A stretch of DNA of 64,000 bases from Neolewinella lacunae. Its GTDB lineage: Bacteria; Bacteroidota; Bacteroidia; Chitinophagales; Saprospiraceae. Under the pieces are notes generated by a model. That model had not been told where the DNA came from. It saw only the letters and a program-made list of their open reading frames with translations, and made no database searches. The stretch lies in NCBI RefSeq assembly GCF_014349155.1, contig NZ_JACSIT010000141.1, positions 60,919 through 124,918 of the forward strand, written 5' to 3'. The stretch's first letter is position 1. Each line of letters opens with the position of its first letter. Positions 460-58,709 of the stretch are shown here, piece after piece. The position numbers and the translations under genes are program-made.

Positions 460-3400
460 CTACTCCTTCACGACAGGAATAAGATTATCATCCGCCACCC
501 GGTCGATGAGCTTGTTGTAGGGGTCGATGCCCGCTTTCTCGGGGAGCGCGTCTACGTACACCACGATGGTGTGCTCGCCGGGCGTCAGCCAGCGCTTCTC
601 CAGAAAGAGCGGTTGCTTCTCCACCAAACCCTGAGCGTTGGTGCCATCCGGACCGAAGACCCCGATCTCGATCAGGCTAGGTGCTGTGGGGCGGGCCTTT
701 TCTTCTCCGGAGCCTTCGTAGCTGATCTTGCGCGTGTCGACCTTCAGCGTTACCCGGTACTTGCCATTGGCCTCTGGGGTAGGTGCGTAGACGGCAGATA
801 GGGCGCGGTTTTCGTAGAGGGTGATCTCGGCGAAGCTTTCCCGGAGGAAGTACTGCATGGAATCCGGCGTAACGGACTGAATGAAGCCATACCAATCGGC
901 CGTAGTGGCGAAGGGTGGATCTTCCTTCAGGGCGAAGCTATCCAGGAAGGCAGCAAAGCCTGCGTTGAGGCGGTCTTCGCCGATGTAGTCGGATAGGGCG
1001 TACATGATCAGGCCGCCTTTGCGGTACCAGACGTAAGCCTGGGTGTCGTTGTCCAACAGGGTTTTCTCGAACTTGCTTTCGCCGCTGCGCCCCCGCAGGT
1101 AGCTATCGAGTTCGTACTTCAGGAATTTGCCCATGCTGGCCTCGCCGTAGCGCTCTTTGGTGACCATGAGCGAGCTGTATTCGGCCATGGTTTCGGCGAT
1201 CTGGTTGGCTCCCCGGGTGGCGCTGGGGGCAATTTGGTGGCCCCACCACTGGTGCGCTACTTCGTGGGCCGTGACGGTGAAGGCGTAGTCGTTGTCCGCC
1301 GGATCCCGGAAGTCTCCCGTCCAGCCGAAATCTTCTGCGTAGGGGACGGTATTGGGGAAGGACTGGGCAAAGGTGGCGTAGCGGGGAAACTCCAGAATCC
1401 GCAATTGATCGAACTGGTAGGGACTAAAGTTTCTGGCGTAATAGGCCAGGGATGCTTTGGCCGAAGCCATGAAGCGATCAAGGTTGCGGTCGTGGTTCTT
1501 GTGGTGGAAGATTTGAATTTTGACGTCGCGGCCGTTGGTGTTCCGGTAGACGTCTTCCAGCACTTCGTAGTTGGCGGAGGAGATGTTCCAGAAATTCTGG
1601 ATTTTGCCTTCGTTGGCGTACTCGAAGTAGCGGCGGCCGTCTTTTTCGTACTCCTTCGTCAGTTTGCCCGGGGCGATGGCGATTTGATCGGGGGCCGTAC
1701 TGACAGTGGCTCTGAAGGTGACGAAGTCGGAATCGTCGCCAAACAGCAGCGTGGCGCGGCCCTGGGCATCGTCCTGGGGCGGCAGGTCGTAATCCCGGAT
1801 TTCGAGGCCGCGCTTTTTGCGTTCCAGGTCGGAGCTGATGCCCGCCCCGCTGGGGTAGCCGAAGCCGGGGAAGATGGAGTTGTTCAGAAAGGTGCCGTTG
1901 AAGACGATGTCGCGCTGGTAGCCTTCGTTTGGGAAGGCCCCGAAGCCACCCTCCACGACCATTTCCATCAGCGCGCTTTCCCCCGGCTCCAGTGGATCGG
2001 CCAGGTGGTAAATTTCGAAATCGAAGTCCTCTTCCCGCTGCACCAGTTCGGGCGCGATGCCGTCGATGGTAAAGACCGACATGATGACCGTTTTTTGGTC
2101 GTAGCTGTGGTTGATCAACAACGTATCGATGGCCGTGGCCCCCTTGTTTTTGATGCGGAACAGGCCGCGGGCTTTCACGTTGCGTTGTTCCGGGACGAGG
2201 TCGACGAAAAGCTCAGTATCCGTGATTTTGGGCTGGAGGAAACCATCGTACTTGCGGTAGCTTTTTTCGAAGGCCTCCTGTTGGTCGAGGCTTTCTTCGT
2301 TGGAAGTGTAGGTGTTTTTTACGCTCACGTTGTTGTAGATCGTGAAGCCGGAAAGGGCAAACACCGCCAGGGCCGCCGCAATGCCGAGGGCTGGTTTCAA
2401 CCCCCAATCCTGGCCGAAGCGCTGGAAGCGGCTCTTCCACGCATTGTCCGTCCCCCGCGCCCAGAACAAACCACTGAGGATGAGCAGTACGGTACCGAAG
2501 GCCAACCAGTACACGTTGAACCAGCTGACTGAGCGTACGAAGTGGCCAAAGCCATTCATATCGGAAATGAGGTAGCCCGGCCGGCTGCCAAACAAAAACA
2601 TGTTGTAGTCGATCTCCAGAATTGCCGGCACAAAGAACACCACGGCGTAGGTGCCAATGGCAACGACGTGGCCCAAAAACTTGCTGTTCACCAATACGTG
2701 CACAAAAAAGGCCAGCGACATCAGCACCAGGTACTGCGGCCAGGTGAGCAGATAAAGATCGGTGAAGTATTGCCCGAAGTCGTAATCGAAATACCCCTGT
2801 ACCGTTTGGTTGAACACCCCGAGTATCCACACCATCGTCACCAGCAGGAAGGTGACCAGCACCATGGTCATTAGTTTGCCCCCGTAGATCGCCCAGCTGG
2901 GCACCGGCAGCGCGTCGCTGATCTGATCAAACTTTACCGTCCTGTCGCGGTGCACCACCTCGCCGGTGTAGAAGACCAGGATGACCAGCACGAAGAAGAT
3001 GTAGGTCTCGTTCTTCATCTCCAGCATCGTGTAGGTGGTGGGCAGGCTGGGCGTACCGTAAATGGTGCTGCCAAACCAGCCGTCGAAAAACAGGAACAGG
3101 AGGGCCCCGGAGATGATCCCCGCGAAGTAGGGGTCGCGGAGGATCGACTTGAACTCGATCCAGGCCTGGGCAAACATGTGGCGGACGTAGCTGACCCCGT
3201 CAAACCTTTGCTGTACCGGAGGGATGGGCACTGCACCTGCGGCCGCGCCCCGGTTAAACTCTCCGGAAACGGCCTTTTTTACTTTTTCTGCCTTACCCCC
3301 CAAAAAGCGGACAAATTCAAAACGGAAAAGGGTAAACAACAGCAAGGCCAGGGCGATGCCGGGCCACAGCAGGCGGTTGATCAGCAAGTTACCCGTCAGC

Positions 3401-4104
3401 GGCGCATGAAAGGTATTCTGCTCCGGCGGGGTCAGGTATTTTGTCACCTCCTGAAATCCAAAAAGCCCGAAGGGGTCGATCAGCGAAACCAGGGACTGGT
3501 TTTCCAGGTCACTCGCCAGCGTTCCCGCCACCAGGTAAACGATGAAAAAGAGGATGCTGCCAACGTAAGACACGAAGATCTTGCGCGTCAGCGCGACCAG
3601 GCAAAAGAAGAAAGTGCCCGTAAAAATCAGGTTTGGCCAAAGGTAAACGGTGGTGCCGTAGACGTAATCGGCCAGCCGCAACGGACCGAACCGCTCCGGC
3701 TCCTCCCACTCCAGCAGGGGCCCCAGCGAGTAGCCAATCATCAAGCCCAGCACCACCCCCAGGCTGATGGCTAATAGTGTGACGAGCGACCCCGCGTAGC
3801 GACCCAGCAAATAGCCTTTCTCGGAAACCGGGTAGGTGAAGTAGTAATCCTGCACCCCGTGTTCGATATCGCGGTACACCGGCACGCCCATCACCGCCGA
3901 GGCGATCAGGACGCCGAAGATGCTCACCGTCATGAGCAGGTTGGCGACGGTGACGGCGGAATTGGCGAAGGCTTTTTCGGAGCTGGCGTTGGCCCCGTTG
4001 GCCGCCAGCAAAAAGCCGAAGAGCAGCAAGATGCCGAAGTAGGCCCAGGTGGCCGGCCGCGTGAAGCGGTACTTGAGTTCGAATTTCAGAATTTCCAGGA
4101 ACAT
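460..4104 (-). CDS. ABC transporter permease fused to M1-family aminopeptidase
   Basis: A protein of 1214 residues. The N-terminal half carries many hydrophobic segments typical of ABC-2-type permeases, in two blocks of roughly residues 1-280 and 310-590. The C-terminal half is soluble and carries a gluzincin motif, HEVAHQWWG near residue 945, followed by a glutamate in NQIAETMAEY. This is M1 aminopeptidase-like. The exopeptidase GAMEN motif is not present; the equivalent stretch reads YAEDFGW. The gene lies 63 bp downstream of the ABC ATPase on the same strand, so the two probably form one transporter. Its substrate is unknown. Residues 285-291 (RGAAAGA), between the two membrane blocks, are encoded by a copy of the dispersed 18-bp element. 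The family fusion is recognised; the physiological role is inference. Confidence 0.88.
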   Translation of the reverse strand: MFLEILKFELKYRFTRPATWAYFGILLLFGFLLAANGANASSEKAFANSAVTVANLLMTVSIFGVLIASAVMGVPVYRDIEHGVQDYYFTYPVSEKGYLLGRYAGSLVTLLAISLGVVLGLMIGYSLGPLLEWEEPERFGPLRLADYVYGTTVYLWPNLIFTGTFFFCLVALTRKIFVSYVGSILFFIVYLVAGTLASDLENQSLVSLIDPFGLFGFQEVTKYLTPPEQNTFHAPLTGNLLINRLLWPGIALALLLFTLFRFEFVRFLGGKAEKVKKAVSGEFNRGAAAGAVPIPPVQQRFDGVSYVRHMFAQAWIEFKSILRDPYFAGIISGALLFLFFDGWFGSTIYGTPSLPTTYTMLEMKNETYIFFVLVILVFYTGEVVHRDRTVKFDQISDALPVPSWAIYGGKLMTMVLVTFLLVTMVWILGVFNQTVQGYFDYDFGQYFTDLYLLTWPQYLVLMSLAFFVHVLVNSKFLGHVVAIGTYAVVFFVPAILEIDYNMFLFGSRPGYLISDMNGFGHFVRSVSWFNVYWLAFGTVLLILSGLFWARGTDNAWKSRFQRFGQDWGLKPALGIAAALAVFALSGFTIYNNVSVKNTYTSNEESLDQQEAFEKSYRKYDGFLQPKITDTELFVDLVPEQRNVKARGLFRIKNKGATAIDTLLINHSYDQKTVIMSVFTIDGIAPELVQREEDFDFEIYHLADPLEPGESALMEMVVEGGFGAFPNEGYQRDIVFNGTFLNNSIFPGFGYPSGAGISSDLERKKRGLEIRDYDLPPQDDAQGRATLLFGDDSDFVTFRATVSTAPDQIAIAPGKLTKEYEKDGRRYFEYANEGKIQNFWNISSANYEVLEDVYRNTNGRDVKIQIFHHKNHDRNLDRFMASAKASLAYYARNFSPYQFDQLRILEFPRYATFAQSFPNTVPYAEDFGWTGDFRDPADNDYAFTVTAHEVAHQWWGHQIAPSATRGANQIAETMAEYSSLMVTKERYGEASMGKFLKYELDSYLRGRSGESKFEKTLLDNDTQAYVWYRKGGLIMYALSDYIGEDRLNAGFAAFLDSFALKEDPPFATTADWYGFIQSVTPDSMQYFLRESFAEITLYENRALSAVYAPTPEANGKYRVTLKVDTRKISYEGSGEEKARPTAPSLIEIGVFGPDGTNAQGLVEKQPLFLEKRWLTPGEHTIVVYVDALPEKAGIDPYNKLIDRVADDNLIPVVKE
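3233..3250 (-). repeat. 18-bp dispersed element copy inside a CDS
   Basis: A perfect minus-strand copy of GGGCGCGGCCGCAGGTGC. It is read in frame as RGAAAGA in the permease/M1 fusion, in the hydrophilic linker before VPIPPVQQ. Confidence 0.85.
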
Positions 4105-4167
4105 GGAGGAGCGGTTGAATGGTGGGCAAGAGGGAGCAAGGGGCTACTTGATGGGCTGCCGTTTCGG

Positions 4168-5055
4168 TCAGACCAGTTCCAGTTCCATTCGTTCGCCGAT
4201 GCGGGTGAAGTACACGTCTTCCAGGTCGGCGTTTACCGCGTGGAAGGAGGCATCCGGCTGGCTTTCGCTGAAGACGTGGATTTCCGTTTTGCCGCCCTTC
4301 AGCTGGGTGGAGATCACGCGGTGGGCTTCCAGGTGGGCGGGCAGCTCGGCCTTGTGGATGGACTTGCTCCAGATGCTGCCGTTTACTTCGCGCACCAGTT
4401 CGGCGGGGTGCCCCTTGGCGATCACCTGCCCGAGGCAGATGATGGCCATGTCGTTGCAGAGGTTGGTGACGTCTTCGACGATGTGGGTGCTGAGGATGAC
4501 GATGGTGTTTTCGCCGATTTCACTGAGCAGGTTGTGGAAGCGGTTGCGCTCGGTGGGGTCCAGGCCAGCGGTGGGTTCATCGACGATGATCAGTTGGGGG
4601 TTGCCGAGGAGGGCCTGGGCGATGCCGAAGCGCTGCTTCATGCCGCCGGAGAAGGTGCCGAGGTTGCTCTTGCGTTTGTCGTAGAGGTTGACGCGATGTA
4701 GCAGGGCGGCAACGAGTTCTTTGCGTTCGGCGCGCTGGTTGATCCCCTTGAGGCTGGCGACGTGATCGAGCATGTTTTCGGCGGAGACTTTGGGGTAGAC
4801 GCCGAACTCCTGCGGAAGGTAGCCAAGGATGCGGCGGACGGCATCTTTGTCTTTCAGCACGTCAATATCCCCCAGGGTGATGCTGCCCGAATCGGCTTCT
4901 TGCAGGGTGGCGATGGTGCGCATCAGGCTCGACTTCCCGGCACCGTTGGGACCCAGCAGGCCGAACATCCCGCGCGGAATCGTCAGGTTGCAGTCGTTGA
5001 TGGCTTTTACGCCGTTGCCGTACGTCTTATTGAGGTGCTCTATGCGAAGTTCCAT
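4168..5055 (-). CDS. ABC transporter ATP-binding protein
   Basis: A protein of 295 residues. Walker A is GPNGAGKSS near residue 35, the Q-loop lies in YLPQEFG, the signature is FSGGMKQR near 140, Walker B is LIIVDEPTAGLDP, and the H-loop is in LSTHIVED. It is a DrrA/NatA-type ATPase that should drive the permease/M1 fusion encoded just downstream on the same strand. The C-terminal 80 residues are a family-typical extension. The start ATG follows directly from the first conserved strand (MELRIEHLNKTYGNG). There is a divergent neighbour with about 215 bp between the starts. Confidence 0.93.
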   Translation of the reverse strand: MELRIEHLNKTYGNGVKAINDCNLTIPRGMFGLLGPNGAGKSSLMRTIATLQEADSGSITLGDIDVLKDKDAVRRILGYLPQEFGVYPKVSAENMLDHVASLKGINQRAERKELVAALLHRVNLYDKRKSNLGTFSGGMKQRFGIAQALLGNPQLIIVDEPTAGLDPTERNRFHNLLSEIGENTIVILSTHIVEDVTNLCNDMAIICLGQVIAKGHPAELVREVNGSIWSKSIHKAELPAHLEAHRVISTQLKGGKTEIHVFSESQPDASFHAVNADLEDVYFTRIGERMELELV

Positions 5056-5189
5056 GTGCTGAGGTGATTTGGCTGCCTAAGTTCATACATCCCTTTGACT
5101 ACCTTGAAAAAAACCGACCAACCCACATTTTCTTGGTACGAAGGTGGTCCGAAGGACGTCGAATAAAGGACCAGGTGGCGTGTGGTTTT

Positions 5190-5207
5190 GGGCGCGGCCG
5201 CAGGTGC
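5190..5207 (+). repeat. 18-bp dispersed element copy
   Basis: A perfect plus-orientation GGGCGCGGCCGCAGGTGC in the divergent region between the ABC ATPase and the metal-binding protein. Confidence 0.85.
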
Positions 5208-5269
5208 AGTGGCAAGGACGGAAGAGCGGAGGAAACAACCAAAGCCCTCGCTCGGGCGTAGTGAAGGGT

Positions 5270-6325
5270 ATGCGTAGCCTGATCATCATTTTCACCTTGC
5301 TCTTGGGTTACTTACCCGGCATCCCGACCTCCTCCGGGACTATCGCCTGCGTCCGCGGACAGACTACGGTACCGACGGACGAAACCCGTCCATTGGTCCT
5401 GGCCTCCGCCTCCATCTTCGCGGATATGGCCGAGGTGATTGCCGGTGGCCTGTTGCGCGTGCAGTCCATCGTCCCCATCGGCGGCGACCCCCACATCTAC
5501 GAGCCGACGCCGGCCGACGTACAGCTCGTCTCCCGCGCCGACCTGGTGCTCATCAACGGCCTGACCTTCGAGGGCTGGATGAACGAGCTGATCGCCAACA
5601 GCGGCACGCGGGCCAACACCGTCATCATCACCCAGGGCATCGGCAGCATCGCCAGCGAGGAATACGCCAACTCCAGCGACCCCCACGCCTGGATGACGGC
5701 CAAAAATGGGCAGACCTACGCCCGCAACATTCGCGACGCCCTGATTGCCCTCGACCCCGCCAACCAAGACGTCTACACCTTCAACGCCGGCATCTACCTC
5801 CAGCAACTGGAGGACCTGGACGCGGAAATTTTCCAGCAAATCGAGAGCATCCCTCTGGAAAAGCGGGTTTTGATCACGAGCCACGACGCCTTTCGCTACT
5901 ACGGGCGCCACTACGGCATCCGCGTGGAAGCCGCGCTGGGGACAAGCACCGACGCGGAAGTCCGCACCGAAGACGTCAACCGCCTGACGCGGATCATCCG
6001 CGAAACGGGTGTGCCGGCCATCTTCGTGGAAAGCACGATCAACCCGAAGCTCATCCGGCAAATTGCTACCGACAACGGCCTCATCATCGGTGGCAGCCTC
6101 TACGCCGATTCGCTGGCCGACCCATCTTTGCCCGCTGGCACTTACCTGGGCATGCTGCGCCACAACACCCAAACCATCGTGGCGGCCCTGCGCGGCGAGG
6201 CGGTGGACAGCGGCGATGGCATGGGGCCTTCGGCGGCCCGGCAGGGCGGCTTGCTTGCCATCATCCTGGCCGTGATGCTGGGCGCTTTTTTCTATATGGT
6301 TAGGCAGTTGAATACGGGGGCCTGA
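5270..6325 (+). CDS. Zinc/manganese ABC transporter solute-binding protein (TroA/ZnuA-like)
   Basis: 351 residues from the ATG that begins a clear signal peptide (MRSLIIIFTLLLGYLPG). The frame is open further upstream, to 5144, but that part runs through the dispersed repeat. Cluster A-I features are present. Candidate metal ligands are His in GGDPHIYEP, His in SHDAFRYYG, Glu in VESTINP and Asp in SLYADSL. A second DPHAW motif is also seen. The C-terminus has a predicted membrane span (GGLLAIILAVMLGAFFYMV), which is unusual for a periplasmic binding protein and suggests membrane anchoring. No matching ATPase or permease is adjacent; the neighbouring ABC pair is of a different (export-type) class. 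Family call is firm, metal specificity is not. Confidence 0.85.
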   Translation: MRSLIIIFTLLLGYLPGIPTSSGTIACVRGQTTVPTDETRPLVLASASIFADMAEVIAGGLLRVQSIVPIGGDPHIYEPTPADVQLVSRADLVLINGLTFEGWMNELIANSGTRANTVIITQGIGSIASEEYANSSDPHAWMTAKNGQTYARNIRDALIALDPANQDVYTFNAGIYLQQLEDLDAEIFQQIESIPLEKRVLITSHDAFRYYGRHYGIRVEAALGTSTDAEVRTEDVNRLTRIIRETGVPAIFVESTINPKLIRQIATDNGLIIGGSLYADSLADPSLPAGTYLGMLRHNTQTIVAALRGEAVDSGDGMGPSAARQGGLLAIILAVMLGAFFYMVRQLNTGA

Positions 6326-6387
6326 AGTTCCCTAGCCCTGCGTTGCTGGCCAGAATTCCCTTCTTTTGCTTTCTAAGTGCTTGTTCC

Positions 6388-7128
6388 ATGCCGAAGTTTC
6401 GTCCACTGTATTTTCTGCTCTGCTTCGCGTTGGTGGGCAGTTTATTTCTGGGCTGCGACGGGCGGCGGGACATCCGCAGCTACTACTTCCCGGCGCGGGA
6501 GTTGACCGACGGACTGGTCTACGTCTACGAAAACACGGGGACCCTCCCGGGACCCGACCGCGAATACTGGTACTACCTGGGCGTGGACGTGGATACGGCC
6601 CTTTACCTCAGCGTAACGCGCTATTCGCCAGTTTTGGCTCCCGAGCAACAGGGGCGCGAAGAAATCCGCAACGACGGCGTCTACCTCCGCGAGTTGACCC
6701 TGCTGGGTACCGACAGTGCGGGCCTGGCCATCCCCACGCCCACTACGCTGCTGTTTAACCAGACCTTCCCCTTCTACCTGGAAGACCAGCCGACGAAGCC
6801 CTACGGCTACCGCATGCGCCTGAGCCCGCCGGACAACCCGGATGCGGTAACTTACGTCACGCTGAACCGCTACTTTGAGCGAGACACTACCATTGAGGTG
6901 CTGGGTGGCAGCTACCCGGCCCTCGTCTTTTCCCTGGCGGGCGAGGTGAGCGTGCGCGACCCGGAGGAGGGCGACATCAGTCCGCAGTTCACCGGCTACG
7001 AGATCTACGCCAAGGGATTGGGTCTGGTGGAGTACCGTCGGGAATTGGGCAACGGCAATTCGCTGGGCGGCCGCTTAGCCGCGCGGATGACGATGGAGGC
7101 GTTTTTGCGGGAGGAAGCAGAACAGTAA
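6388..7128 (+). CDS. Predicted lipoprotein, function unknown
   Basis: 246 residues with a lipoprotein signal, MPKFRPLYFLLCFALVGSLFLGC, whose lipobox cysteine is at residue 23. The chosen ATG begins the signal peptide; an upstream in-frame ATG at 6343 would add 15 poor residues. The mature part is soluble and rich in beta-type sequence (YYFPARELTDGLVYVYEN). No family is recognised. It lies 62 bp after the metal-binding protein on the same strand and converges on alkB with only 9 bp between the stops. Confidence 0.75.
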   Translation: MPKFRPLYFLLCFALVGSLFLGCDGRRDIRSYYFPARELTDGLVYVYENTGTLPGPDREYWYYLGVDVDTALYLSVTRYSPVLAPEQQGREEIRNDGVYLRELTLLGTDSAGLAIPTPTTLLFNQTFPFYLEDQPTKPYGYRMRLSPPDNPDAVTYVTLNRYFERDTTIEVLGGSYPALVFSLAGEVSVRDPEEGDISPQFTGYEIYAKGLGLVEYRRELGNGNSLGGRLAARMTMEAFLREEAEQ

Positions 7129-7137
7129 GCTTTCCGG

Positions 7138-8473: not shown

Positions 8474-8481
8474 TAGCTTTG
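8474..8481 (+). promoter_or_regulatory. -7 promoter box of acyl-CoA dehydrogenase gene
   Basis: TAGCTTTG matches the Bacteroidota TAnnTTTG -7 box and lies 17 nt before the ATG. A TTGG about 20 nt upstream could serve as the -33 element. Confidence 0.6.
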
Positions 8482-15872: not shown

Positions 15873-15890
15873 GGGCGCGGCCGCAGGTGC
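15873..15890 (+). repeat. 18-bp dispersed element copy
   Basis: A perfect plus-orientation core immediately after the terminator of the giant gene and upstream of the rhodanese lipoprotein gene. Confidence 0.85.
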
Positions 15891-15971: not shown

Positions 15972-16514
15972 ATGTTACCTCGTCCATTCCGATTCTTCCA
16001 GTACCTCACTTTGCTCTTTCCACTGCTCCTGGCATCCTGCGTCCGCGCCCAGGAAGTGCCGCCCCGCCTGGCTACCGGCTACGGCCCCCTCGACGATAAG
16101 TTGTCGCGCCTGGTGAGTGCCGACGCCAACGCCCTGAGCGCCCGCGAAGCCCGGTCCCTGAAAAATGCCGTGTTTTTAGACGCCCGCGAGGCCAACGAGT
16201 ACGCCGTGAGCCACCTGCCCGGCGCCCGCCACCTGGGCTTCGATGCGCCGGATTATTCCGTCCTGGAAGGCCTCGATAAAAACCGTCCCCTGGTGGTCTA
16301 CTGCACCGTAGGCTACCGCAGCGAGCGCGCCGCCGAGCTGCTCCGCAAAAGGGGTTTTACCCAGGTGCACAATCTCTACGGCAGCCTCTACGCCTGGAAA
16401 CTCGCCGGCCTGCCCCTGGAAGACGCCCAGGGCAAAGCCACCAACAAACTGCACACCTACAATAAGAAGTGGGGCTCCTTCGTGCCCGATTCGATCGGCG
16501 AAAAAGTCTACTAG
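15972..16514 (+). CDS. Rhodanese-like domain lipoprotein
   Basis: 180 residues. The ATG at 15972 begins a signal with a lipobox (LLLASC). An upstream in-frame ATG at 15900 would bury the signal. The rhodanese domain carries FLDAREANEY, HLPGARHLGF and the active-site loop YCTVGYRSE with the cysteine that accepts sulfane sulfur. Its natural substrate in the envelope is unknown. Its stop codon shares CTAG with the convergent DUF192 gene. The bases for the lipobox region (16032-16050) match a variant of the dispersed element with one extra base. Confidence 0.88.
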   Translation: MLPRPFRFFQYLTLLFPLLLASCVRAQEVPPRLATGYGPLDDKLSRLVSADANALSAREARSLKNAVFLDAREANEYAVSHLPGARHLGFDAPDYSVLEGLDKNRPLVVYCTVGYRSERAAELLRKRGFTQVHNLYGSLYAWKLAGLPLEDAQGKATNKLHTYNKKWGSFVPDSIGEKVY

Positions 16515-20216: not shown

Positions 20217-20334
20217 GGGCGCGGACGCAGGTGCTGTGGCCGCCCCCCGGGGAGAGCAATGGAAGGCCGCCTGGTCCGTTGGCCCGGACTTCCCCCGCTA
20301 CCTGCGACTGGCCTCTGCACCTGCGGCCGCGCCC
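20217..20334. repeat. Facing pair of 18-bp dispersed elements
   Basis: Left copy GGGCGCGGACGCAGGTGC (20217-20234) and right copy GCACCTGCGGCCGCGCCC (20317-20334) form inverted repeats around 82 bp of GC-rich sequence. One A/C difference breaks perfect pairing. The pair starts 9 bp after the nadE stop and ends 35 bp before the next ATG. Confidence 0.85.
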
Positions 20335-27808: not shown

Positions 27809-27932
27809 TATGATGTTGGTGTTGGGGTCGGTTCCGCAAACTGCGTTCCAGCCGTATCGTCCTGACAAGTTGTCGGCCGGCATCGGGCCTGGCTCCTTGT
27901 CCGTTCTCCCCCCGTCGGGGGGTCGGGGGGGA

Positions 27933-27950
27933 GCACCTGCGGCCGCGCCC
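27933..27950 (-). repeat. 18-bp dispersed element copy
   Basis: A perfect minus-orientation core between the divergent htpG and S15 peptidase genes. It is preceded on the plus strand by a CCCCCCGTCGGGGGG-type tract. A similar C/G tract adjoins the copy at 57613. Confidence 0.85.
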
Positions 27951-32069: not shown

Positions 32070-33344
32070 ATGACAACGAATTCCCCCGATCTATCCACCG
32101 CCATCCGGGCCGCGCTGGGCGAGTTGCGCGCGGCCGCCGCTGCACTCAACCGGCAGCCCGTGGAGCGCTTCAACGCCTGCCTGCGCACGCTGGCCGACCT
32201 GACGGAGGCCAACACCGCCACTTTGCTGGACGCCAACGCCGAAGACTTAGCCAGGATGGACCCTGCCGACCCCAAGTACGACCGCCTGGAACTGACCCCG
32301 CTGCGCCTGCGCGCCATTGCAGAAGACCTGCGGCGGGTGGCGGAACTGCCCAGTCCGCTGGGGCGGGAATTGGAAAACCGGGCCCTGGGCAATGGCCTCC
32401 GGCTCCGTCGCCTGAGTGTACCCATCGGCGTAGTAGGGGTAGTCTTTGAATCGCGGCCCAACGTTACTTTCGACGTCTTTGCCCTTAACCTCAAGGCGGG
32501 CAACGCCACGGTGCTGAAGGGGAGCCGCGATGCCGCCGCCAGCAACCTGGCCATCAAAAAACTCATTGACGCGGCGCTCATCACAACGGGCTTACCCGCC
32601 GCCTGCTACCTGGCGCCAGCCGAACGCAGCGCCCTGGCCCCAATCCTCCAGGCCGTGGGCCTGGTAGACGTCATCATCCCCCGTGGCAGCCAGGGACTGA
32701 TCGATTTCGTCCGGGACAACGCCAGCGTACCCGTCATCGAAACCGGCGCGGGCATCTGCCACACCTACGTCGATGCTACCGCTCATCTGGACTGGGCCCG
32801 CAACATCATCACCAACGCCAAAAGCCGCCGCGTCAGCGTTTGCAATGCCCTCGACTGCCTCTTGCTGCACCGCCGGCAATTGCCGCATTTACCCGGCTTG
32901 CTCACGGAACTGGGAGAAAAACACCGGTGCGAAGTCTACGCCGACCCCGCCGCCTACGCGGCATTGGAGGGATACTACCCCGCCGACCTGCTCCACGCCG
33001 CTACGGCAGACAGCTTCGGAACCGAATTTTTGAGCATGCGCCTGGCGATTAAAACGGTGGATGACCTGGCCGAAGCCACCGAGCACATTGGCCGCTACGG
33101 CAGCCGCCACAGCGAAGCCATCGTCAGCGATGACCCCGCGAGCGTTGAACGGTTTTTGCGGGAGGTCGACGCCGCCGTCGTTTACGCTAACACCAGCACG
33201 GCCTTCACCGACGGCGGGCAATTTGAGCTCGGCGCCGAAATCGGCATCAGCACCCAGAAATTGCACGCCCGCGGACCGATGGGCCTGGACGCCCTTACGA
33301 GCTACAAGTGGCTGGTGGAAGGAGAAGGGCAGGTAAGGGAATAA
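32070..33344 (+). CDS. proA: Glutamate-5-semialdehyde dehydrogenase
   Basis: 424 residues. The second step of proline synthesis: NADPH-dependent reduction of gamma-glutamyl phosphate. The catalytic cysteine is in [16 protein letters not shown]. Further family motifs are [18 protein letters not shown] and [12 protein letters not shown]. No proB is nearby. ATG 32070 is chosen because the 23 codons upstream lack family sequence. A homopurine tract and a dispersed 18-bp element follow the gene. Confidence 0.95.
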
Positions 33345-33427
33345 AGGGGGAAAGGAATAAAGGGGGAAAGTAGGAAGGGAATAAAGGATTAAAGGCGGAA
33401 GGGGGTAAGGGGAAAAAGGAGTAAGGG
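33345..33427 (+). repeat. Homopurine tract (GGAATAAAGGG-like repeats)
   Basis: About 80 nt of nearly pure A/G built from variants of GGAATAAAGG, starting next to the proA stop. Confidence 0.7.
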
Positions 33428-33442
33428 CGCGGCCGCAGGTGC
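33425..33442 (+). repeat. 18-bp dispersed element copy
   Basis: A perfect plus-orientation core between convergent proA and the DUF4230 gene. The following CGGGCAAGTCG resembles flanks of other copies. Confidence 0.85.
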
Positions 33443-34292: not shown

Positions 34293-35474
34293 ATGGGAAG
34301 TCCGTTACTGGAATTTTGGTCTGCCGCGCGCGCTGCTGCCGCCAAGGGAGAATTATTGAAACTCACCCTGAGCAAGCCCCGCCACGGCGGGAATGACTTG
34401 CCGCGCAACCGCTACGCCCGGCTGGTGCAGATCAAAGGACGTACCCAGCTCCAGATCACCCACCGCTACGAAGACCGGGAGGAAGTGAAAAACCACCTGA
34501 TTGGCATGGGCATCTCCTTGCTCGAAAGCGCGCTGGGCGTAGACTACGGCAATGCCGACTTATTCACCACCCACGAGCAGTTCAGCATTACCCTGACGCG
34601 GAAGGGCAACGCGCGCTTTTTACGCAAAACCCTGCACCTGCGGCCGCGCCCCACCGACCCCGTAGTACAGGAACACGACCGGGCCAAGCACCGCGAAATC
34701 CCCGCCGACCGCATGTACCTGCACGACCTGGGCATTACCAACGAGCGCGGCGAGGTGCTCCGCGACGGTAAGCGCAAGTACAAGCAGATCAATAAGTTTG
34801 TGGAAATCATCGATGGCCTGCTCCGCGATTTCCCCCTCGCCAACGGAGCCCACATCGTCGATATGGGATCGGGCAGTGGCTACCTCACCTTTGCCCTCTA
34901 CGACCACGTGGTCAATTCCCTTGGCCTCGACGTGACGGTAACGGGCGTTGAGCTGCGCCCTAAACTGGTGGAAAAATGCCGGATGGTAGCCCTCAAGAGT
35001 GGTTTCGATGGCCTGCATTTTACCGAGGGCAGCATCGATGGTTTTACCGCCGACCGCATTGACGTCCTCATCGCCCTGCACGCCTGCGATACGGCCACCG
35101 ACGATGCCCTGTTCAAGGGCCTGCAAGCCAAAGCCGACATCATGGTGGTGGCCCCCTGCTGCCAGAAGCAGGTGCGCCGCGAAATGGAAGTGCCCGAAGA
35201 AATGAAGCCCCTGCTCGGCAACGGCATCCTCCTGGAATGGCAGGCCGCGATGCTTACCGACGGCATCCGGGCCCTGCTGCTGGAAGCCGAAGGCTACCAA
35301 ACCAAACTCTTTGAGTTCATCCCCCTGGAGCACACCGCCAAAAATGTGATGATCACCGCCGTCAAAGGCCGTAAACGCGCGGAGGCCAAGGAGGAAGTCA
35401 AAGCCCTCAAAAAGCGCTTCGGCGTAACGCGGCACCACCTGCAAGACCTGCTGAAAGCGAAGAAAAAAGTGTGA
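34293..35474 (+). CDS. SAM-dependent methyltransferase (class I)
   Basis: 393 residues from ATG 34293 (MGSPLLEFW); the open frame further upstream is a shadow of the DUF4230 gene. An N-terminal domain of about 185 residues precedes the Rossmann fold with the SAM loop VDMGSGSGYLTFAL. Later motifs are ALHACDTATDDAL and VAPCCQKQVR, the layout of the GSTCD-like / methyltransferase 31 group. The substrate is unknown. Residues 114-120 (LHLRPRP) are encoded by an in-frame copy of the dispersed 18-bp element, just after FLRKT and before a conserved-looking DRAKHREIP stretch. Confidence 0.85.
   Translation: MGSPLLEFWSAARAAAAKGELLKLTLSKPRHGGNDLPRNRYARLVQIKGRTQLQITHRYEDREEVKNHLIGMGISLLESALGVDYGNADLFTTHEQFSITLTRKGNARFLRKTLHLRPRPTDPVVQEHDRAKHREIPADRMYLHDLGITNERGEVLRDGKRKYKQINKFVEIIDGLLRDFPLANGAHIVDMGSGSGYLTFALYDHVVNSLGLDVTVTGVELRPKLVEKCRMVALKSGFDGLHFTEGSIDGFTADRIDVLIALHACDTATDDALFKGLQAKADIMVVAPCCQKQVRREMEVPEEMKPLLGNGILLEWQAAMLTDGIRALLLEAEGYQTKLFEFIPLEHTAKNVMITAVKGRKRAEAKEEVKALKKRFGVTRHHLQDLLKAKKKV
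34634..34651 (-). repeat. 18-bp dispersed element copy inside a CDS
   Basis: A perfect GCACCTGCGGCCGCGCCC. It is read in the methyltransferase as the end of Leu114, then HLRPRP. Confidence 0.85.
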
Positions 35475-39158: not shown

Positions 39159-39176
39159 GCACCTGCGGCCGCGCCC
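39159..39176 (-). repeat. 18-bp dispersed element copy
   Basis: A perfect minus-orientation core, 27 bp after the trmB stop. Confidence 0.85.
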
Positions 39177-40847: not shown

Positions 40848-40865
40848 GGGCGCGGCCGCAGGTGC
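40848..40865 (+). repeat. 18-bp dispersed element copy
   Basis: A perfect plus-orientation core, 13 bp after the glyS stop. Confidence 0.85.
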
Positions 40866-48526: not shown

Positions 48527-48621
48527 GGGCGCGGACGCAGGTGCAGGGGCTACGACGAGGAGCGAGGGAGGGTTGGCAAACCTTGCTCCTTCGTTCTTTC
48601 CTGGCACCTGCGGCCGCGCCC
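48527..48621. repeat. Facing pair of 18-bp dispersed elements
   Basis: Left GGGCGCGGACGCAGGTGC (48527-48544), right GCACCTGCGGCCGCGCCC (48604-48621), 59 bp apart. The right copy ends 10 bp before the crp-like gene's stop codon. Same A/C asymmetry as the pair at 20217-20334. Confidence 0.85.
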
Positions 48622-53504: not shown

Positions 53505-53566
53505 ACGGGTGGCTAAAGATACGCCGTCGGGCCGGTTCTGCCCCAGACCCCAACGGCAAAAACAAA

Positions 53567-53598
53567 ATGGCCGCCCGTTTTCAGTAACGGGCGGCCAT
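53567..53598 (-). terminator. Terminator hairpin read on the minus strand
   Basis: ATGGCCGCCCGTT (53567-53579) pairs perfectly with AACGGGCGGCCAT (53586-53598) around TTCAGT. On the minus strand it is followed by TTTTGTTTTTG. It would end transcripts coming from 54783 or from the small frame at 53812. Confidence 0.75.
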
Positions 53599-53719
53599 AC
53601 GGGGGAAGATTAAAGTCAAAAACAGACTGTTTTTCTATAACTGGGCAAGTATCAGAATAAAAGTAACTAAAACAAGGGGTCTAAATATAGCTAGTCTGTT
53701 CATCCGAATAAACTTCCTC

Positions 53720-53812
53720 TTAGTAACTGCGGGATCCATCAATGAGGGCGGAAGACAGGCTAAGTCCACCACCGATGGCGCAGGCAAGAAGGAAAACGTA
53801 CAACATTGTCAT
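53720..53812 (-). CDS. Possible 30-residue small membrane protein
   Basis: ATG at 53812, TAA at 53720. The peptide begins MTMLYVFLLACAIGGGLSLS and ends with a polar tail (GSRSY). The first 20 residues could span the membrane. TAGCTTTG at 53891-53898 on the same strand fits a -7 box, and a terminator lies about 120 bp downstream. No homolog is known to me; it could be chance. Confidence 0.4.
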   Translation of the reverse strand: MTMLYVFLLACAIGGGLSLSSALIDGSRSY

Positions 53813-53890
53813 GGTATGTAGAATTGATGAGTAAGTAAAAAGGTGACAAAGTTGCTCATGGAATAGAACGTAAATAACCAAAATCTACAG

Positions 53891-53898
53891 CAAAGCTA
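53891..53898 (-). promoter_or_regulatory. -7 box upstream of the small ORF
   Basis: TAGCTTTG on the minus strand, perfect TAnnTTTG, 78 nt before ATG 53812, and the only such box in this gap. Confidence 0.4.
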
Positions 53899-54006
53899 CA
53901 AACCACGAATGTTAAATAACTGTAACGGGCCTTCTTCTTGACGGAATGGTATCAAACGAAGGGGAAAAGGATTCTGCTTCCCTACCTGCCGCTTGCGGGC
54001 GAAAGC

Positions 54007-54783
54007 TTAGAAGGTCGGATCAAGCAGACTGATCTCGGCGTAGAGGTGCTCCGTGGGTGGTGCAGGTTCCAGCGGAGCGCCCTCCGGAAGGTGGTAAATG
54101 CGCACCCCACCCGTGGGCAAATGGATGGGGAACAGGTGGTGCAGGTCCGCCTGTCCGATCACCCGGACTTTGGTCTCCTGGAGCGCGGAAGAATCGATGA
54201 GGTAGTAAGCGTAGTCCGGGTCGGGGGGCGGCACCCGCGATAAATCCAGCAACGCAATATTTTCGCGCTCCAGGTAGTGCACCCGGATGTTGTTGATGCC
54301 AAAAACTGAAGCGTGGGCCTTGAGGCTGTCCCAGTTCATTTCCGACTTTTGGAGATTTTTCAGTTGCAGCTCAAAACTTTTGCCATCCTGGGCGTGGCGG
54401 GCTTTTTCCGCCAGCAGTTCCTGTTTGAGCGTCTGGTTGGACCGGAACAGAAAGCCACAAAGCGCCACCAACAGCAGGCAGGCAACGCTCAGGGCGTAGC
54501 GCCAGATGACCAGCGTGTGATTGCGTTCCGTCATCCGGACGATCATCTCCTGGTCGAGGTCGGCAAAGTCGCGGTGGTTCCGCAGAGGTCGGCCAGCGGG
54601 AGTGGGGATGCCCGAGATACCGTCGGCGTAGTCCTCCAGTTGCTTGCGGAGATGCTCCAGGTCCTTGCGGGCCTCGGGGTCCTTGGCAATGAGGTCTTCC
54701 ACCCACTCGCTCTCTTCGCGGTTGGTTAGCCCCAGGACGTACTGTTCCAACAGCTCATGCTTATCGAAATCGTCCTGGTTCAT
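54007..54783 (-). CDS. Membrane protein with anti-sigma (RskA-like) layout
   Basis: 258 residues from ATG 54783 (MNQDDFDKHELLEQYVLG). The N-terminal cytoplasmic helices LLEQYVLGLTNREESEWVEDLI fit anti-sigma domains. One membrane span (VIWRYALSVACLLLVALCGFLF) and a coiled coil follow. The C-terminus resembles RskA-type domains (WDSLKAHASVFGINNIRVHYL, PDPDYAYYLIDSSAL). No sigma gene is adjacent, so any partner is elsewhere. The frame runs on upstream to 54885 through leader sequence. Confidence 0.72.
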   Translation of the reverse strand: MNQDDFDKHELLEQYVLGLTNREESEWVEDLIAKDPEARKDLEHLRKQLEDYADGISGIPTPAGRPLRNHRDFADLDQEMIVRMTERNHTLVIWRYALSVACLLLVALCGFLFRSNQTLKQELLAEKARHAQDGKSFELQLKNLQKSEMNWDSLKAHASVFGINNIRVHYLERENIALLDLSRVPPPDPDYAYYLIDSSALQETKVRVIGQADLHHLFPIHLPTGGVRIYHLPEGAPLEPAPPTEHLYAEISLLDPTF

Positions 54784-54862
54784 GCTGGTTACGTTCGAGG
54801 TTAATGTTAAGGGTAGGAGGTGCAGGTTATCCACTATAACGAGGCCTTCCCAAAAGTGTTCA

Positions 54863-54897
54863 GCGGGGTGCCTGGGCTTGCCCAACCTGCACCCCGC
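54863..54897 (-). promoter_or_regulatory. Nested hairpin in the leader of the anti-sigma-like gene
   Basis: Outer stem GCGGGGTGC / GCACCCCGC (54863-54871, 54889-54897). Inner stem TGGGC-TT-GCCCA (54873-54884). No T-run on either side, so more likely a leader structure than a terminator. Confidence 0.4.
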
Positions 54898-55008
54898 AAC
54901 ATCGGTACAACCGCTAAAGGTATGAATGTTTGGACAGTCTCAGGCCTCGCTCGTCGGTCAAGTCCCCCCGGGCGGAGAAAATGCCGTACGTTTTGGCGCT
55001 CAGAACAG

Positions 55009-55026
55009 GGGCGCGGCCGCAGGTGC
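55009..55026 (+). repeat. 18-bp dispersed element copy
   Basis: A perfect plus-orientation core in the divergent region before the epimerase gene. Confidence 0.85.
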
Positions 55027-55110
55027 TGGCGTAGGGACAAGGAGCAAAGGAAGTGCGGCGTCGTTTGGCATCGACGACTTATTTTAGGCCCCAACTAAGT
55101 CGCTTCCCGC

Positions 55111-56142
55111 TTGCAAATTACCGTCCACCCCTATGATCTGCCGCTGGCCAATCCCTTCCGCATTGCCCACGAAAGCCGAACGGTACAGCCTACCCTGATC
55201 GTCGGGCTGACCGAACCCTCCCTCGGCCTGGTAGGCTACGGCGAAGCGCCCATGACGCGCTATTACGGGCTCGACAGCGCGACCTCCACCGCCGAACTCC
55301 TCGCCCTGGCACCTGCGTTCGCGCCCTACAAAACCCTGGAGCCGACCGAACTGCACGCCCTGCTGGACGAGCACGCTCCCCACCTCAATCCTTTCCTGCG
55401 CTGCGCCCTCGACGTGGGCGCACACGACCTCTGGGGCTGGCGGCACGCCCAGCGCACGGGCCTGCTCTGGGACCAGGAGCAGAGCCGACGGGTCCCCACC
55501 TGCTACACCATCGGCCTGGGGCCCATCGACGAGATGATTGCCAAACTCCGCGCTTTCCCCTGGCCCGTTTACAAAATCAAAATGGGCCGGGGCGACGACG
55601 ACGTGGCCATCATCCGCGCGCTGCGGGCCCACACCACCGCCCCTTTTTACGTGGACGCCAATACGGGCTGGACGGCCCGGCAAACCATCGAGTACTCGAC
55701 TGCCCTGGCCGAACTTGGTGTGGTCTTCATCGAACAACCTCTCCCGCCAGCAGATCTGGCCGGCGCCCGCGAAGTCCACCAACACAGTGCATTGCCCATT
55801 TTTGCCGACGAAAGCTGCCAGACGGAAGCCGACGTCGACCGCTGCGCCGAATATTTCTCCGGTATCAACATCAAGGTGGTGAAATGCGGTGGGCTACTGC
55901 CCGCGCGGCGCATGATCGCCCGGGCCCGCAGCCTGGGCCTGCAAGTGATGGCGGGCTGCATGACGGAAAGCAGCGTGGGCATCAGCGGCATCGCCCAACT
56001 CCTGCCCGAACTGGATTTTGCCGACCTGGACGGCGCTATGCTCCTGGCCCAAGACCCCGCCCGCGGCGTCACCTTCGACCCCGCTACGGGATTTGCGCAG
56101 TACCCCGACCGGCCGGGGAACGGGGCTTGGCTGGTGGGGTAG
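55111..56142 (+). CDS. Dipeptide epimerase (enolase superfamily, L-Ala-D/L-Glu type)
   Basis: 343 residues, TTG start. Muconate-lactonising-enzyme subgroup: KxK in VYKIKMGRG, metal ligands in YVDANTGW, FIEQPL and FADES, and the second lysine in NIKVVKCGG. Substrate loop GCMTESSVGI is typical of Ala-Glu epimerases that recycle murein peptides. No ATG precedes ITVHPYDLPLANPFRIAH. Bases 55309-55326 (APAFAP) differ from the dispersed element at two positions. Confidence 0.9.
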   Translation: MQITVHPYDLPLANPFRIAHESRTVQPTLIVGLTEPSLGLVGYGEAPMTRYYGLDSATSTAELLALAPAFAPYKTLEPTELHALLDEHAPHLNPFLRCALDVGAHDLWGWRHAQRTGLLWDQEQSRRVPTCYTIGLGPIDEMIAKLRAFPWPVYKIKMGRGDDDVAIIRALRAHTTAPFYVDANTGWTARQTIEYSTALAELGVVFIEQPLPPADLAGAREVHQHSALPIFADESCQTEADVDRCAEYFSGINIKVVKCGGLLPARRMIARARSLGLQVMAGCMTESSVGISGIAQLLPELDFADLDGAMLLAQDPARGVTFDPATGFAQYPDRPGNGAWLVG

Positions 56143-56222
56143 TGGGCCAACCGGTGTGCTTTAGCAGCCCCCCCATACTGATGTATGTCAGGGTATCCAC
56201 TGTGACAAAATCCATTGCCCTT

Positions 56223-56714
56223 CTATTGTCGCCACAACTTTACAAAGGCATCATGATCAAAGCCCAGGTATTCTGGCTGAATGATCAACCCTTGGATGCC
56301 ATTCCACTCCAGCTCCCACTCCCTTGGGGATAGCGAATCAGAATTCATCGTCAGTTGCCCTTTGACAAAAGTTAAAGCCGAATATCTGCCCGACAGGTTT
56401 CCGGATTGCGAACAATTGAACGTGAATTCCCCCTGGTCATTTACCTCTCTTAAAACAGCATTGGACGGGGATTCATACGTTGTATACACCAGATGATAGG
56501 TGAAATCTGCTTTCAGTTCAAAGCTTAACTCTAAGCATTGATTTTGGTAGCAATTGGTATTGGTGGTGATGAACTCAGGGCTCCCCCACTTGCCGATAAT
56601 GACGCTGCGGTCCTCCTCCGCACACCCTGAACCGGGCTGATCATCGTCGCTACCGATACATCCGAAAAACATGCTCAATAATAGGGACAGTAGAAGGATG
56701 GTGCGGTGAATCAT
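56223..56714 (-). CDS. Predicted lipoprotein, lipocalin-like
   Basis: 163 residues with lipoprotein signal MIHRTILLLSLLLSMFFGC. The mature part has the short-strand pattern of Bacteroidota lipocalin-like proteins (IIGKWGSPEFI at its start, FELKADFTYHLV, TFVKGQLTMNSDSL). Several cysteines may pair. AT-richer than its neighbours. Function unknown. Confidence 0.75.
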   Translation of the reverse strand: MIHRTILLLSLLLSMFFGCIGSDDDQPGSGCAEEDRSVIIGKWGSPEFITTNTNCYQNQCLELSFELKADFTYHLVYTTYESPSNAVLREVNDQGEFTFNCSQSGNLSGRYSALTFVKGQLTMNSDSLSPREWELEWNGIQGLIIQPEYLGFDHDAFVKLWRQ

Positions 56715-56816
56715 TGTTTTGCATTTTATAGTTGGACCACTTTAGGGACAAGTCAGCTTGCTACCGGAAACTCCCGCAAACGGGCAAAACTCCGCCAAGG
56801 CCAGGCGTTTCCCACT

Positions 56817-58709
56817 TCACACTCCCTGCAACTCCACCAACTTGCCGTACACCCCGCCCCGGTGGAGCAACTCGGCGTGGGTGCCGCGTTCCACGATGCG
56901 GCCTTGTTCGAGCACGACGATCTCGTCGGCGGCCTGGATGGTGGACAGGCGGTGGGCGATGACCAGCGCGGTGCGGCCCGCCATGAGCTTCTGCAGGGCG
57001 TCTTGTACGAGGCGTTCGGATTCGGAATCGAGGGCGGAGGTGGCCTCATCGAGGATCAGAACCTCGGGATCGCGCAGGATGGCCCGGGCGATGGTAAGGC
57101 GCTGCCGCTGTCCGCCGCTGAGCTTGGCCCCGCGGTCGCCGATGTTGGTGTGGTAACCCTGGGGGCTGGCCGCGATAAAGTCGTGAGCGTTCGCGATCCG
57201 GGCGGCGGCTTCCACCCGGGCTGCGGTAATGCCCGGCAGGCCAAAGACGATGTTGTTGTAGATGCTGTCGTTAAACAAAATGGCTTCCTGGGAGACGATG
57301 CCAAAATGGCTGCGGAGCGTGGGCAGGTCGTAGTCGCGCAAATCCCGGCCGTGGAGGAGAATCTGGCCAGCCGTCGGGTCGTAAAAGCGGGGCAGCAGGT
57401 CGGCAATGGTGCTCTTGCCACCGCCGGAGGCTCCCACCAGGGCCAGCACTTTGCCCGGCGGCAGCGCCAGGTCAATGTCTTCCAGCACCAGGGGGCCATT
57501 TTCGGTGTAACGGAAGCCGACGCCTCTGAAGACGATGCCTGACTTCCCCTGCTCTCCCCCTTCGGGGGTTGGGGGGGCAACCCTTCTCCCCCCTTCGGGG
57601 GGCCGGGGGGGAGCACCTGCGGCCGCGCCCACCGGACCTGCCGCTACCGCAGCCAACATGGGATTGGGCGTATCCAGCACGCTTTCCACCCGCTGCATGG
57701 CCCCCATGCCCTTCTGCACGTCGTACCAGGCTTTGGAGAATTTTTTGGCGGGGTCAATAACCATGTAAAAGGCAAAGATGAAGGACATGAAAGTGCCCGC
57801 CTCCAGCGCCCCGCTGAAGACCTGCCGCGAACCATACCAAAGCAACAGGGCCACGGTGGCGATGCCCAGAAACTCGGTGAGGGGACTGGAAAGGTCGCGG
57901 CGCCAGAGCAGCCGTACGAGCTTGCGCCGGTAGTCGTTGTTCAGCTGGGCAAACTGCCCTGCCTGAAAGGCTTCGGCGCGGAAGCTTTTGATGATGCGCA
58001 ATCCACCCAGGCTTTCTTCCGTCCGGCTGACGATCTCGCCCAGCTTTTCCTGGACTTCGCCGCTGCTGCGCTTCAGCCTTTTGCCAATGCCACCAATGAC
58101 GACGCCCGTGAAGATCATGAGGCCAAAAACGAACAGCGTAAGTTGCGGACTCACCAAAATCATGAAGGCCAAGGAGCCCACAATGATGAGGGGCTCCCGG
58201 AAAATGGCTTCCAGAACGTTGAGGATGCTCGACTCCACTTCCTGCACGTCGCTCGTAATGCGGCTCAGGAGGTTGCCCTTGCGCTCTTCGGTAAAGTAAG
58301 CCAGCGGCAAACTCAGCAGGTGGCCGTAAAGGGCATTGCGCAAATCGCGAATGATGCCGCTGCGCACCGGTGCCATGAAGAACAGCGCCAGGTAGCGGAA
58401 GAGGTTCTTGAGGAGAAACGACAGCAAAATGAGCCCGCAGACGTAGGCCAGGGCCGTCTCCCGGCCGTAATCGCTGATCCAGTTTGTAATGTGGAAACCC
58501 GCAAATTGCTGGAAATCAGCAAAGGATTTGAGCTGCTCAGGGGCCGAAGCTACCGCCTTAGTCTGGTCAAACAAGATCTCCAGAAACGGTGCAAAAAGCG
58601 GAATGGAAACCACCGTGAAAAGGGCCGTAAGCACGTTGCTGACGATGGCCAGGGTCACCAGGCCGCGGTAATTGCCCAGATAGCCAATGAGGCGGCGGAA
58701 AGAAGACAT
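56817..58709 (-). CDS. ABC exporter, MsbA-like (fused permease and ATPase)
   Basis: 630 residues from ATG 58709 (MSSFRRLIGYLGNYRG); the frame continues 11 codons upstream. Six membrane helices lie in the first 330 residues, with the coupling-helix region NALYGHLLSLPLAYFTEERK. The ATPase has Walker A VGASGGGKST, signature LSGGQRQRL, and Walker B EVLILDEATSALDSES. Likely lipid or lipid A-type export at the inner membrane. Between the two domains an inserted Gly/Pro/Ala-rich linker (residues about 355-395) contains VGAAAGAP encoded by the dispersed 18-bp element plus two C/G-rich tracts. Confidence 0.93.
   Translation of the reverse strand: MSSFRRLIGYLGNYRGLVTLAIVSNVLTALFTVVSIPLFAPFLEILFDQTKAVASAPEQLKSFADFQQFAGFHITNWISDYGRETALAYVCGLILLSFLLKNLFRYLALFFMAPVRSGIIRDLRNALYGHLLSLPLAYFTEERKGNLLSRITSDVQEVESSILNVLEAIFREPLIIVGSLAFMILVSPQLTLFVFGLMIFTGVVIGGIGKRLKRSSGEVQEKLGEIVSRTEESLGGLRIIKSFRAEAFQAGQFAQLNNDYRRKLVRLLWRRDLSSPLTEFLGIATVALLLWYGSRQVFSGALEAGTFMSFIFAFYMVIDPAKKFSKAWYDVQKGMGAMQRVESVLDTPNPMLAAVAAGPVGAAAGAPPRPPEGGRRVAPPTPEGGEQGKSGIVFRGVGFRYTENGPLVLEDIDLALPPGKVLALVGASGGGKSTIADLLPRFYDPTAGQILLHGRDLRDYDLPTLRSHFGIVSQEAILFNDSIYNNIVFGLPGITAARVEAAARIANAHDFIAASPQGYHTNIGDRGAKLSGGQRQRLTIARAILRDPEVLILDEATSALDSESERLVQDALQKLMAGRTALVIAHRLSTIQAADEIVVLEQGRIVERGTHAELLHRGGVYGKLVELQGV
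57613..57630 (-). repeat. 18-bp dispersed element copy inside a CDS
   Basis: A perfect core in frame in the exporter, at the linker between membrane and ATPase domains. It is adjacent to CCCCTTCGGGG-type tracts. Confidence 0.85.

Follow-up and report, generated by a model that had tools for sequence, protein, structure and literature searches.

The stretch of DNA analysed here, called the window, comprises 64 kb of the genome of Neolewinella lacunae and carries an 18-bp motif in many copies. The motif is asymmetric and non-palindromic, GGGCGC-NNN-CGCAGGTGC, and is followed by a weak downstream tail. A preliminary description of the window had listed 14 copies, and all of them were recovered: 12 are exact, while those at 20217 and 48527 carry GGAC. 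Two further sites add to these, one at 55309 with the spacer GAA and one at 16032 in the CGCAGGATGC form; a match with three mismatches at 32126 was dropped, its core being missing. At up to three mismatches the window holds 16 matches against 0.25 expected from shuffles, a density beyond chance as had been claimed. Eleven of the 14 copies lie between genes and three inside genes (3233, 34634 and 57613) according to a simple gene caller, again as described, and the reported closeness to stop codons holds for the copies at 20217, 40848, 48604 and 39159. The sites, together with the hairpin inserts that accompany two of them, are as follows.

3233..3250, minus strand: exact motif, within an ABC-permease/M1-peptidase gene, where it occupies a variable stretch and encodes GAAAGA
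5190..5207, plus strand: exact motif, intergenic
15873..15890, plus strand: exact motif, intergenic, convergent with 16032
16032..16050, minus strand: CGCAGGATGC form, on the antisense strand of a rhodanese-domain gene, at an N-terminus (...LLLASCVRAQ) that resembles a signal peptide by eye
20217..20234, plus strand: motif with spacer GGA, 9 bp past the stop of an NAD synthase gene, convergent with 20317
20317..20334, minus strand: exact motif, convergent partner of 20217
27906..27932, minus strand: hairpin insert TCCCCCCCGACCCCCCGACGGGGGGAG, between core and tail
27933..27950, minus strand: exact motif, intergenic, followed by the C-rich hairpin insert
33425..33442, plus strand: exact motif, intergenic
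34634..34651, minus strand: exact motif, antisense within a methyltransferase open reading frame, upstream of the recognised domain
39159..39176, minus strand: exact motif, intergenic, 27 bp past a stop
40848..40865, plus strand: exact motif, 13 bp past the stop of a class II tRNA synthetase gene
48527..48544, plus strand: motif with spacer GGA, convergent with 48604 (77 bp)
48604..48621, minus strand: exact motif, convergent partner of 48527, 10 bp from a stop
55009..55026, plus strand: exact motif, intergenic
55309..55326, minus strand: motif with spacer GAA, on the antisense strand of an enolase-like (MR_MLE_C) gene
57586..57612, minus strand: hairpin insert TCCCCCCCGGCCCCCCGAAGGGGGGAG, adjoining the core of the 57613 copy
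57613..57630, minus strand: exact motif, within an ABC exporter at its variable linker, and followed by the hairpin insert

Occurrence in the genus

The N. lacunae genome (G000; 5.82 Mb in 154 contigs, with some N) contains 1,019 copies of the 18-mer at no more than one mismatch (519 on the forward strand, 500 on the reverse), where a control pattern, the motif read backwards, gives 1 and 0. The strict form GGGCGCNNNCGCAGGTGC occurs at 1,057 sites (538 and 519), and 20 of the 21 genus genomes, N. lacunae included, have strict sites. Neither outcome that would have spoken against the preliminary description, absence elsewhere in the genome or an equal density by chance, is seen. A survey of 60 genomes, made up of N. 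lacunae, 20 others of the same genus and 39 from other genera of the family and order, matched the 18-mer in 20 of the 21 Neolewinella genomes and in none of the 39 genomes outside the genus; G001 is the sole genus genome without it. The fragmented assemblies G007 and G018 hold 354 and 665 copies. Among the matches listed, the named records are Neolewinella agarilytica, N. persica, N. aurantiaca and metagenome-assembled genomes assigned to Lewinella, Saprospiraceae and Bacteroidia, and the remaining records have a single match each. This huge over-representation of a short non-palindromic motif on both strands is a feature of the DNA uptake sequence (DUS) and uptake signal sequence (USS) type. 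No described family for the motif turned up in literature searches, in agreement with the preliminary description. Full-text searches returned nothing on the 18-mer, on an uptake sequence in Bacteroidota or Saprospiraceae, or on repetitive extragenic palindromic (REP) sequences in Lewinella; literature joining Bacteroidetes with DNA uptake sequence concerned Neisseria only, and that joining Neolewinella with repeat was unrelated by title. Scanning the window against Rfam, with gathering scores as the threshold, gave no match.

Different members of the genus spell the motif differently. In G001, the top over-represented words are pieces of KGGCGNCGGAGCGCAGGTAA (top z 20.8), which at no more than one mismatch occurs 448 times in that genome, 47 times in G006 and 0–2 times in the other 19. 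G013 uses GGGCGCTGCCGC(A/G)GGTGC, with 108 loose sites in 480 kb against 0, 0, 0 and 1 for four control patterns. G011 and G017 often have GGGCGGGNNCGCAGGTGCA, whose shared half is by construction, since the site listing in these two genomes was anchored on CGCAGGTGCA. The half CGC(A/G)GGT is common to the dialect spellings, as in DUS/USS-type dialects that share a core. G006, with 13 strict sites of the G000 type and 47 of the G001 type, the latter mostly at one mismatch, is perhaps a lineage whose dialect is being lost or altered. In G021 (168 kb sampled) and G023 (184 kb sampled), which belong to two other genera of the family, there is no comparable word, with a top z of 9. The marine genus Neolewinella keeps a short, strict DNA mark about every 4 kb, and its spelling differs between species.

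Architecture of the site

Statistics for the N. lacunae genome were taken from 464 kb of the 5.82 Mb, a non-random sample consisting of the window and 20 pieces, which are parts of the first contigs listed. The core is near all-or-none. The sample holds 99 perfect strict sites, and scrambled motifs give almost none. One-base core variants number 17. Position 1 accounts for 11 of these and position 18 for 2, which puts 13 at the two ends, and only 4 fall at the 13 fixed positions between 2 and 17, so that perfect sites dominate in the manner of DUS/USS. The three spacer bases vary freely, and the CGCAGGATGC form, one base longer, occurs 8 times. The core is followed downstream by a weakly conserved tail some 25 bp long that approximates AGGGGAAGGACAAGGAGCAAGGG; the weaker flanking words noticed in the preliminary description are real portions of it. 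With sites chosen by their core, the tail has G at +4 in 85 of the 96 sites without an insert.

A C-rich hairpin is inserted at a fixed place between core and tail in 22 of 118 sites, and among the 35 hairpins of this kind in the sample, 24 lie next to a core. The hairpin, TCCCCCCCGRCCCCCCGAAGGGGGGAG, is seen after the core in the window (27906–27932 and 57586–57612) and at L038–L057, and related hairpins stand before GGAGCA within the tail. The hairpin has the appearance of another dispersed repeat, one with a preference for the motif.

Close pairs, also chosen by core, are convergent in 11 of 14 cases, divergent in 3 and tandem in none. Among 81 of the 83 solo copies, a clear partner was found downstream in 6 and upstream in none, and mean partner scores were alike on both sides (−24.9 downstream, −25.6 upstream; Mann-Whitney p 0.67). 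Solo copies were also considered as halves of decayed pairs, an idea rejected on these figures.

Distribution along the chromosome

Genes were predicted with a simple home-made caller, by which 83 of 118 strict sites lie outside called genes, a count that includes sites near piece ends, and 35 lie within. Intergenic sites occur in every orientation relative to the flanking genes (24/24/18/15 of 81), with densities of 1.87 per kb in convergent gaps, 1.29 in tandem gaps and 1.59 in divergent gaps. The sites are evenly spaced. The mean distance between 101 merged sites is 4.4 kb, with a coefficient of variation of 0.57 against 0.95 (95% range 0.78–1.17) for random intergenic placement, and none of 1000 placements was as low. 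The dispersion index per 20 kb is 0.46 in G000 and 0.64 in G013, and sites per 20 kb correlate with GC content (r 0.57 and 0.50, respectively). Forward and reverse sites are balanced (519/500 in G000, 56/52, and 233/215 for the G001 form). Strand bias by the sign of GC skew is absent in G013 (38/37 and 18/15 in 24 pieces, where skew is a weak replichore guide).

Sites within genes

PheT was aligned across 19 species, with G018 (partial) and G009 (no match) excluded. The core is found at identical codons in eight of them (G000, G002, G003, G005, G007, G013, G014 and G019); a decayed form stands in G015, other codons are used in ten more species, and all 19 align over this segment without a gap. 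Empty orthologous sites, as expected if copies were insertions of a REP or a miniature inverted-repeat transposable element (MITE), are therefore not seen in PheT. In the eight carriers, the conserved core residues A, R, Q and V are each encoded by an invariant codon, while the spacer codon changes its residue (P, T or A). The rough chance of all four conserved core codons being frozen is 1.4e-5, a figure whose rates include those codons and whose locus was picked for holding the motif. Sites in an aminotransferase and in an OmpA domain likewise align without a gap (two PDB alignments each).

The first 45 codons, although only 11.6% of the coding length, hold nine of the 35 genic sites. Of the nine, eight read (T/S)CxxAQ from the antisense strand; these N-termini were assigned as signal-peptide-like by eye. 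Counterparts of the 3233 copy are an identical core in G005, GGGCGGGGCC... in G007 and GGGCGCTCGC... in G013, the last within a gapped linker; the G019 form has one core change. The linker holding the copy at 57613 is too variable to separate insertion from substitution (at least 15 of 21 orthologues aligned).

Candidate competence genes and transposases

ComEC was found in 21 of 21 genus genomes, and at least two neighbouring HHH_3 repeats in 20 of 21. These two families are common in bacteria (10 of 14 controls for ComEC, 11 of 14 for HHH_3), and their presence is therefore weak support for uptake. The repeats belong to an open frame of about 370–520 amino acids with two or three HHH_3 repeats (L339–L341; G000:C120:115750-116124), found in 20 of 21 genomes. 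Its product is a candidate DNA-binding competence protein. Transformation of Riemerella anatipestifer requires an HHH protein, according to the available part of one report (PMC8459023).

Genes with a Y1_Tnp domain, the type found in REP-associated tyrosine transposases (RAYTs), occur in 19 of 21 genus genomes. None was found in the fragmented assemblies G007 and G018, which are rich in copies, while G001 has three and no copy of the 18-mer. One of the two N. lacunae loci (L214) has no site and the other (L231) has a single CGCAGGATGC-form site near its edge. A RAYT/REP relationship was rejected, as Y1_Tnp genes do not follow copy number and the N. lacunae loci are not flanked by sites.

Occurrence in phage DNA

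The exact 18-mer occurs in 22 stretches of IMG/VR. Eleven of these contain just the one site even when any base is allowed at position 13 (the loose form), and resemble chance matches. Two tailed-phage contigs stand out. The first, 3300012037_000001, is 38.7 kb long and encodes a tape measure and a helicase according to PHROGs; a 21.1-kb piece of it (L364) contains 6 loose sites, spaced 3.0–5.3 kb apart, and L493 contains 2 more, with A at position 13 in 4 of the 8. Contig 3300009467_000002 (44.6 kb, with a tape measure) has at least 8 loose sites in the pieces examined, 7 with A at position 13. Many sites on phage contigs have tail-like flanks by eye, and tailed-phage contigs with spaced host-type motifs were noted at L364, L372, L493 and L501. 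Five remote relatives of these phages (GC 0.33–0.42) have no site in 98.8 kb. Scans with other spellings gave 20 stretches among the matches listed for the GGA form (17 new loci), with 10 extra sites against 0 in the control, and one stretch for the G001-type word, with no second site. The G013-type word gave at least 113 stretches, with 11 extra sites against 8 in the control, so these matches are mostly due to chance.

Interpretation

The motif behaves as a maintained site rather than a mobile element, and it is not a REP or MITE end. REP and REPIN elements, which go with RAYT transposases, likewise reach hundreds of copies, mostly intergenic and with inverted pairs. The preliminary description had proposed that the 18-mer may be the best-kept end of such a palindromic or mobile element and that a linked transposase might be found. 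Copies would then be insertions, convergent pairs the intact unit and solo copies relics, an idea favoured by the matching tails of the convergent pairs, the few solo copies with a downstream partner, the fixed hairpin insert, the upstream repeat shared by some G013 sites and a possible in-frame insertion in the ABC-exporter linker. The proposal did not hold: PheT, the aminotransferase and the OmpA domain carry the site without gaps, the core is intact beside a weakly conserved tail and decays unevenly, unlike dead copies, partner scores do not differ between the two sides, and Y1_Tnp genes do not track copies. We consider a mobile origin improbable. A transcription signal, such as a terminator or a regulator site, seems more improbable again: several copies do lie 0–30 bp past stop codons, hairpins are possible at convergent pairs and convergent gaps are slightly denser in sites, whereas every gene orientation is seen, 35 of 118 sites lie in called genes and solo copies predominate. 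Least credible is a site-specific recombination or phage-packaging signal, which would suit a motif found in both host and phage DNA and for which some 1,000 dispersed sites with a free spacer, even spacing and dialects are a poor fit.

The motif is more probably a dialect-forming self-DNA tag of the genus, spread by molecular drive and most likely serving as an uptake sequence, a reading to which we give about an even chance. It is suggested by strict cores, dialects, permissive places, pairs, spacing and the lack of strand bias, all of which are marks of DUS/USS. A sequence-specific DNA-recognition factor of Neolewinella would read the site, with lineages holding their own spellings around the common CGC(A/G)GGT half. 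DNA with perfect sites from related cells would be preferentially taken up and recombined, and mutant sites would thereby be exchanged for perfect ones, which constitutes the drive. New sites would arise by substitution in permissive sequence, namely gaps, signal-peptide-like N-termini, linkers and some conserved folds. ComEC would act as the inner-membrane channel, with a pilus-independent surface receptor; we infer the receptor, the uptake step and the drive.

The main argument for an intracellular tag, and against a plain uptake sequence, comes from the phage contigs. A host protein, such as a nucleoid or repair factor, or a nuclease sparing marked DNA and Chi-like in effect, would read the motif on every replicon and hence on phages too. 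The spaced loose sites on the two contigs, their absence from the five remote relatives and the even spacing in the host agree with this. Chi sites occur about once per 4–5 kb, may be phage-borne and show strand bias along replichores. The Neolewinella motif is like Chi in density and possible phage carriage, but it is far longer and, in G013, lacks the strand bias of Chi and of FtsK-orienting polar sequences (KOPS). Moreover, the phages were found through the motif, their AT-rich remote relatives probably have other hosts, and prophages of a transformable host could acquire sites by the same drive. An intracellular tag is the main rival reading, at lower odds than an uptake sequence. A particular version, which we put forward as unlikely, is a DNA password: a dialect mark of about 15 bases, carried every 4 kb or so on host and phage replicons and copied by phages, would cause unmarked DNA to be treated as foreign.

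Several observations weigh against an uptake sequence. Strictness is not absolute, as 6 sites in the 464 kb start with TTGCGC, changing both left-end bases, and a 220-kb sample of G001 has 9 perfect sites against 6 with one change (5 of these at the ends). Strict sites are few in G004 (7), G006 (13) and G010 (1), and 140 kb sampled from G004 gave no clear dialect. In G013, 6 of 108 sites, including the counterpart of the 3233 copy, share an upstream repeat, a sign that a longer unit has been copied; the upstream piece lies around AATGCGGGACGAGTT, can form a small hairpin and is joined to (G/T)GGCGCTCGCGC (L190, L238, L241 and L248). The two phage contigs, whose host is unproven and which were found through the motif, hold at least 8 loose sites each, near host density, whereas DUS of Neisseria are scarce in acquired DNA in the accessible portion of one study (PMC2397512). 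Depletion in recently acquired DNA and in phages is a mark of DUS/USS on which the correlation of site counts with GC content and the phage contigs point in different directions. The type IV pilus ATPase (PF00437) is found in 0 of 21 genus genomes, as against 13 of 14 controls, which rules out the type IV minor pilins that serve as receptors in known cases. A Riemerella surface protein required for transformation belongs to the family DUF5689, which is present only in G010 (1 of 21), and with both findings the receptor would have to be new. The motif also exceeds the 9–12 nt of DUS/USS, and no report of natural transformation in Neolewinella came up, a term that was not itself searched for.

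Comparison with known uptake sequences and significance

DNA uptake sequences are known only in Neisseriaceae and Pasteurellaceae, according to one 2025 paper. In Neisseriaceae, DUS number 1,965 to 4,549 copies and form eight dialects around a fixed CTG core; the majority are intergenic, often as inverted repeats acting as terminators, as far as the available sections of the sources go (PMC3630211, PMC2397512, PMC1939737). The Neolewinella motif resembles them, to the extent that those sections describe them, in abundance, dialects, mostly intergenic location, inverted pairs and conserved versus permissive surroundings. It differs in its sequence, in having 15 fixed bases with an inner free spacer, in the lack of a type IV pilus ATPase and in its presence in two phage contigs, and uptake here would be an inferred function. 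Reading by a type IV minor pilin, which is ComP in Neisseriaceae and a predicted one in Pasteurellaceae, is not found in Neolewinella; the motif is partly for this reason set apart from DUS members, though it would work like one. The USS of Pasteurellaceae is a short strict core within a longer weak motif, analysed over 29 bp in Haemophilus influenzae (excerpts of PMC1939737). In the same excerpts USS have no orientation bias, and their spacing is called even by one cited author and less even than compaction needs by the paper itself (PMC1939737). The strict core with a weak flank, the lack of orientation bias and the spacing are shared with Neolewinella, while core sequence and length, phylum and receptor are not.

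If intracellular, the password would amount to a sequence-based self/non-self system, and we know of no described system of this kind. If the motif is an uptake sequence, it would be a third, unrelated case of an uptake tag, in Bacteroidota and without a type IV pilus ATPase, with several spellings in one genus and the mark present in phage sequences. Its receptor would be traceable, in marine strains that are harmless, through co-variation with the dialects, and sequence-tagged DNA exchange would have arisen again on other machinery.

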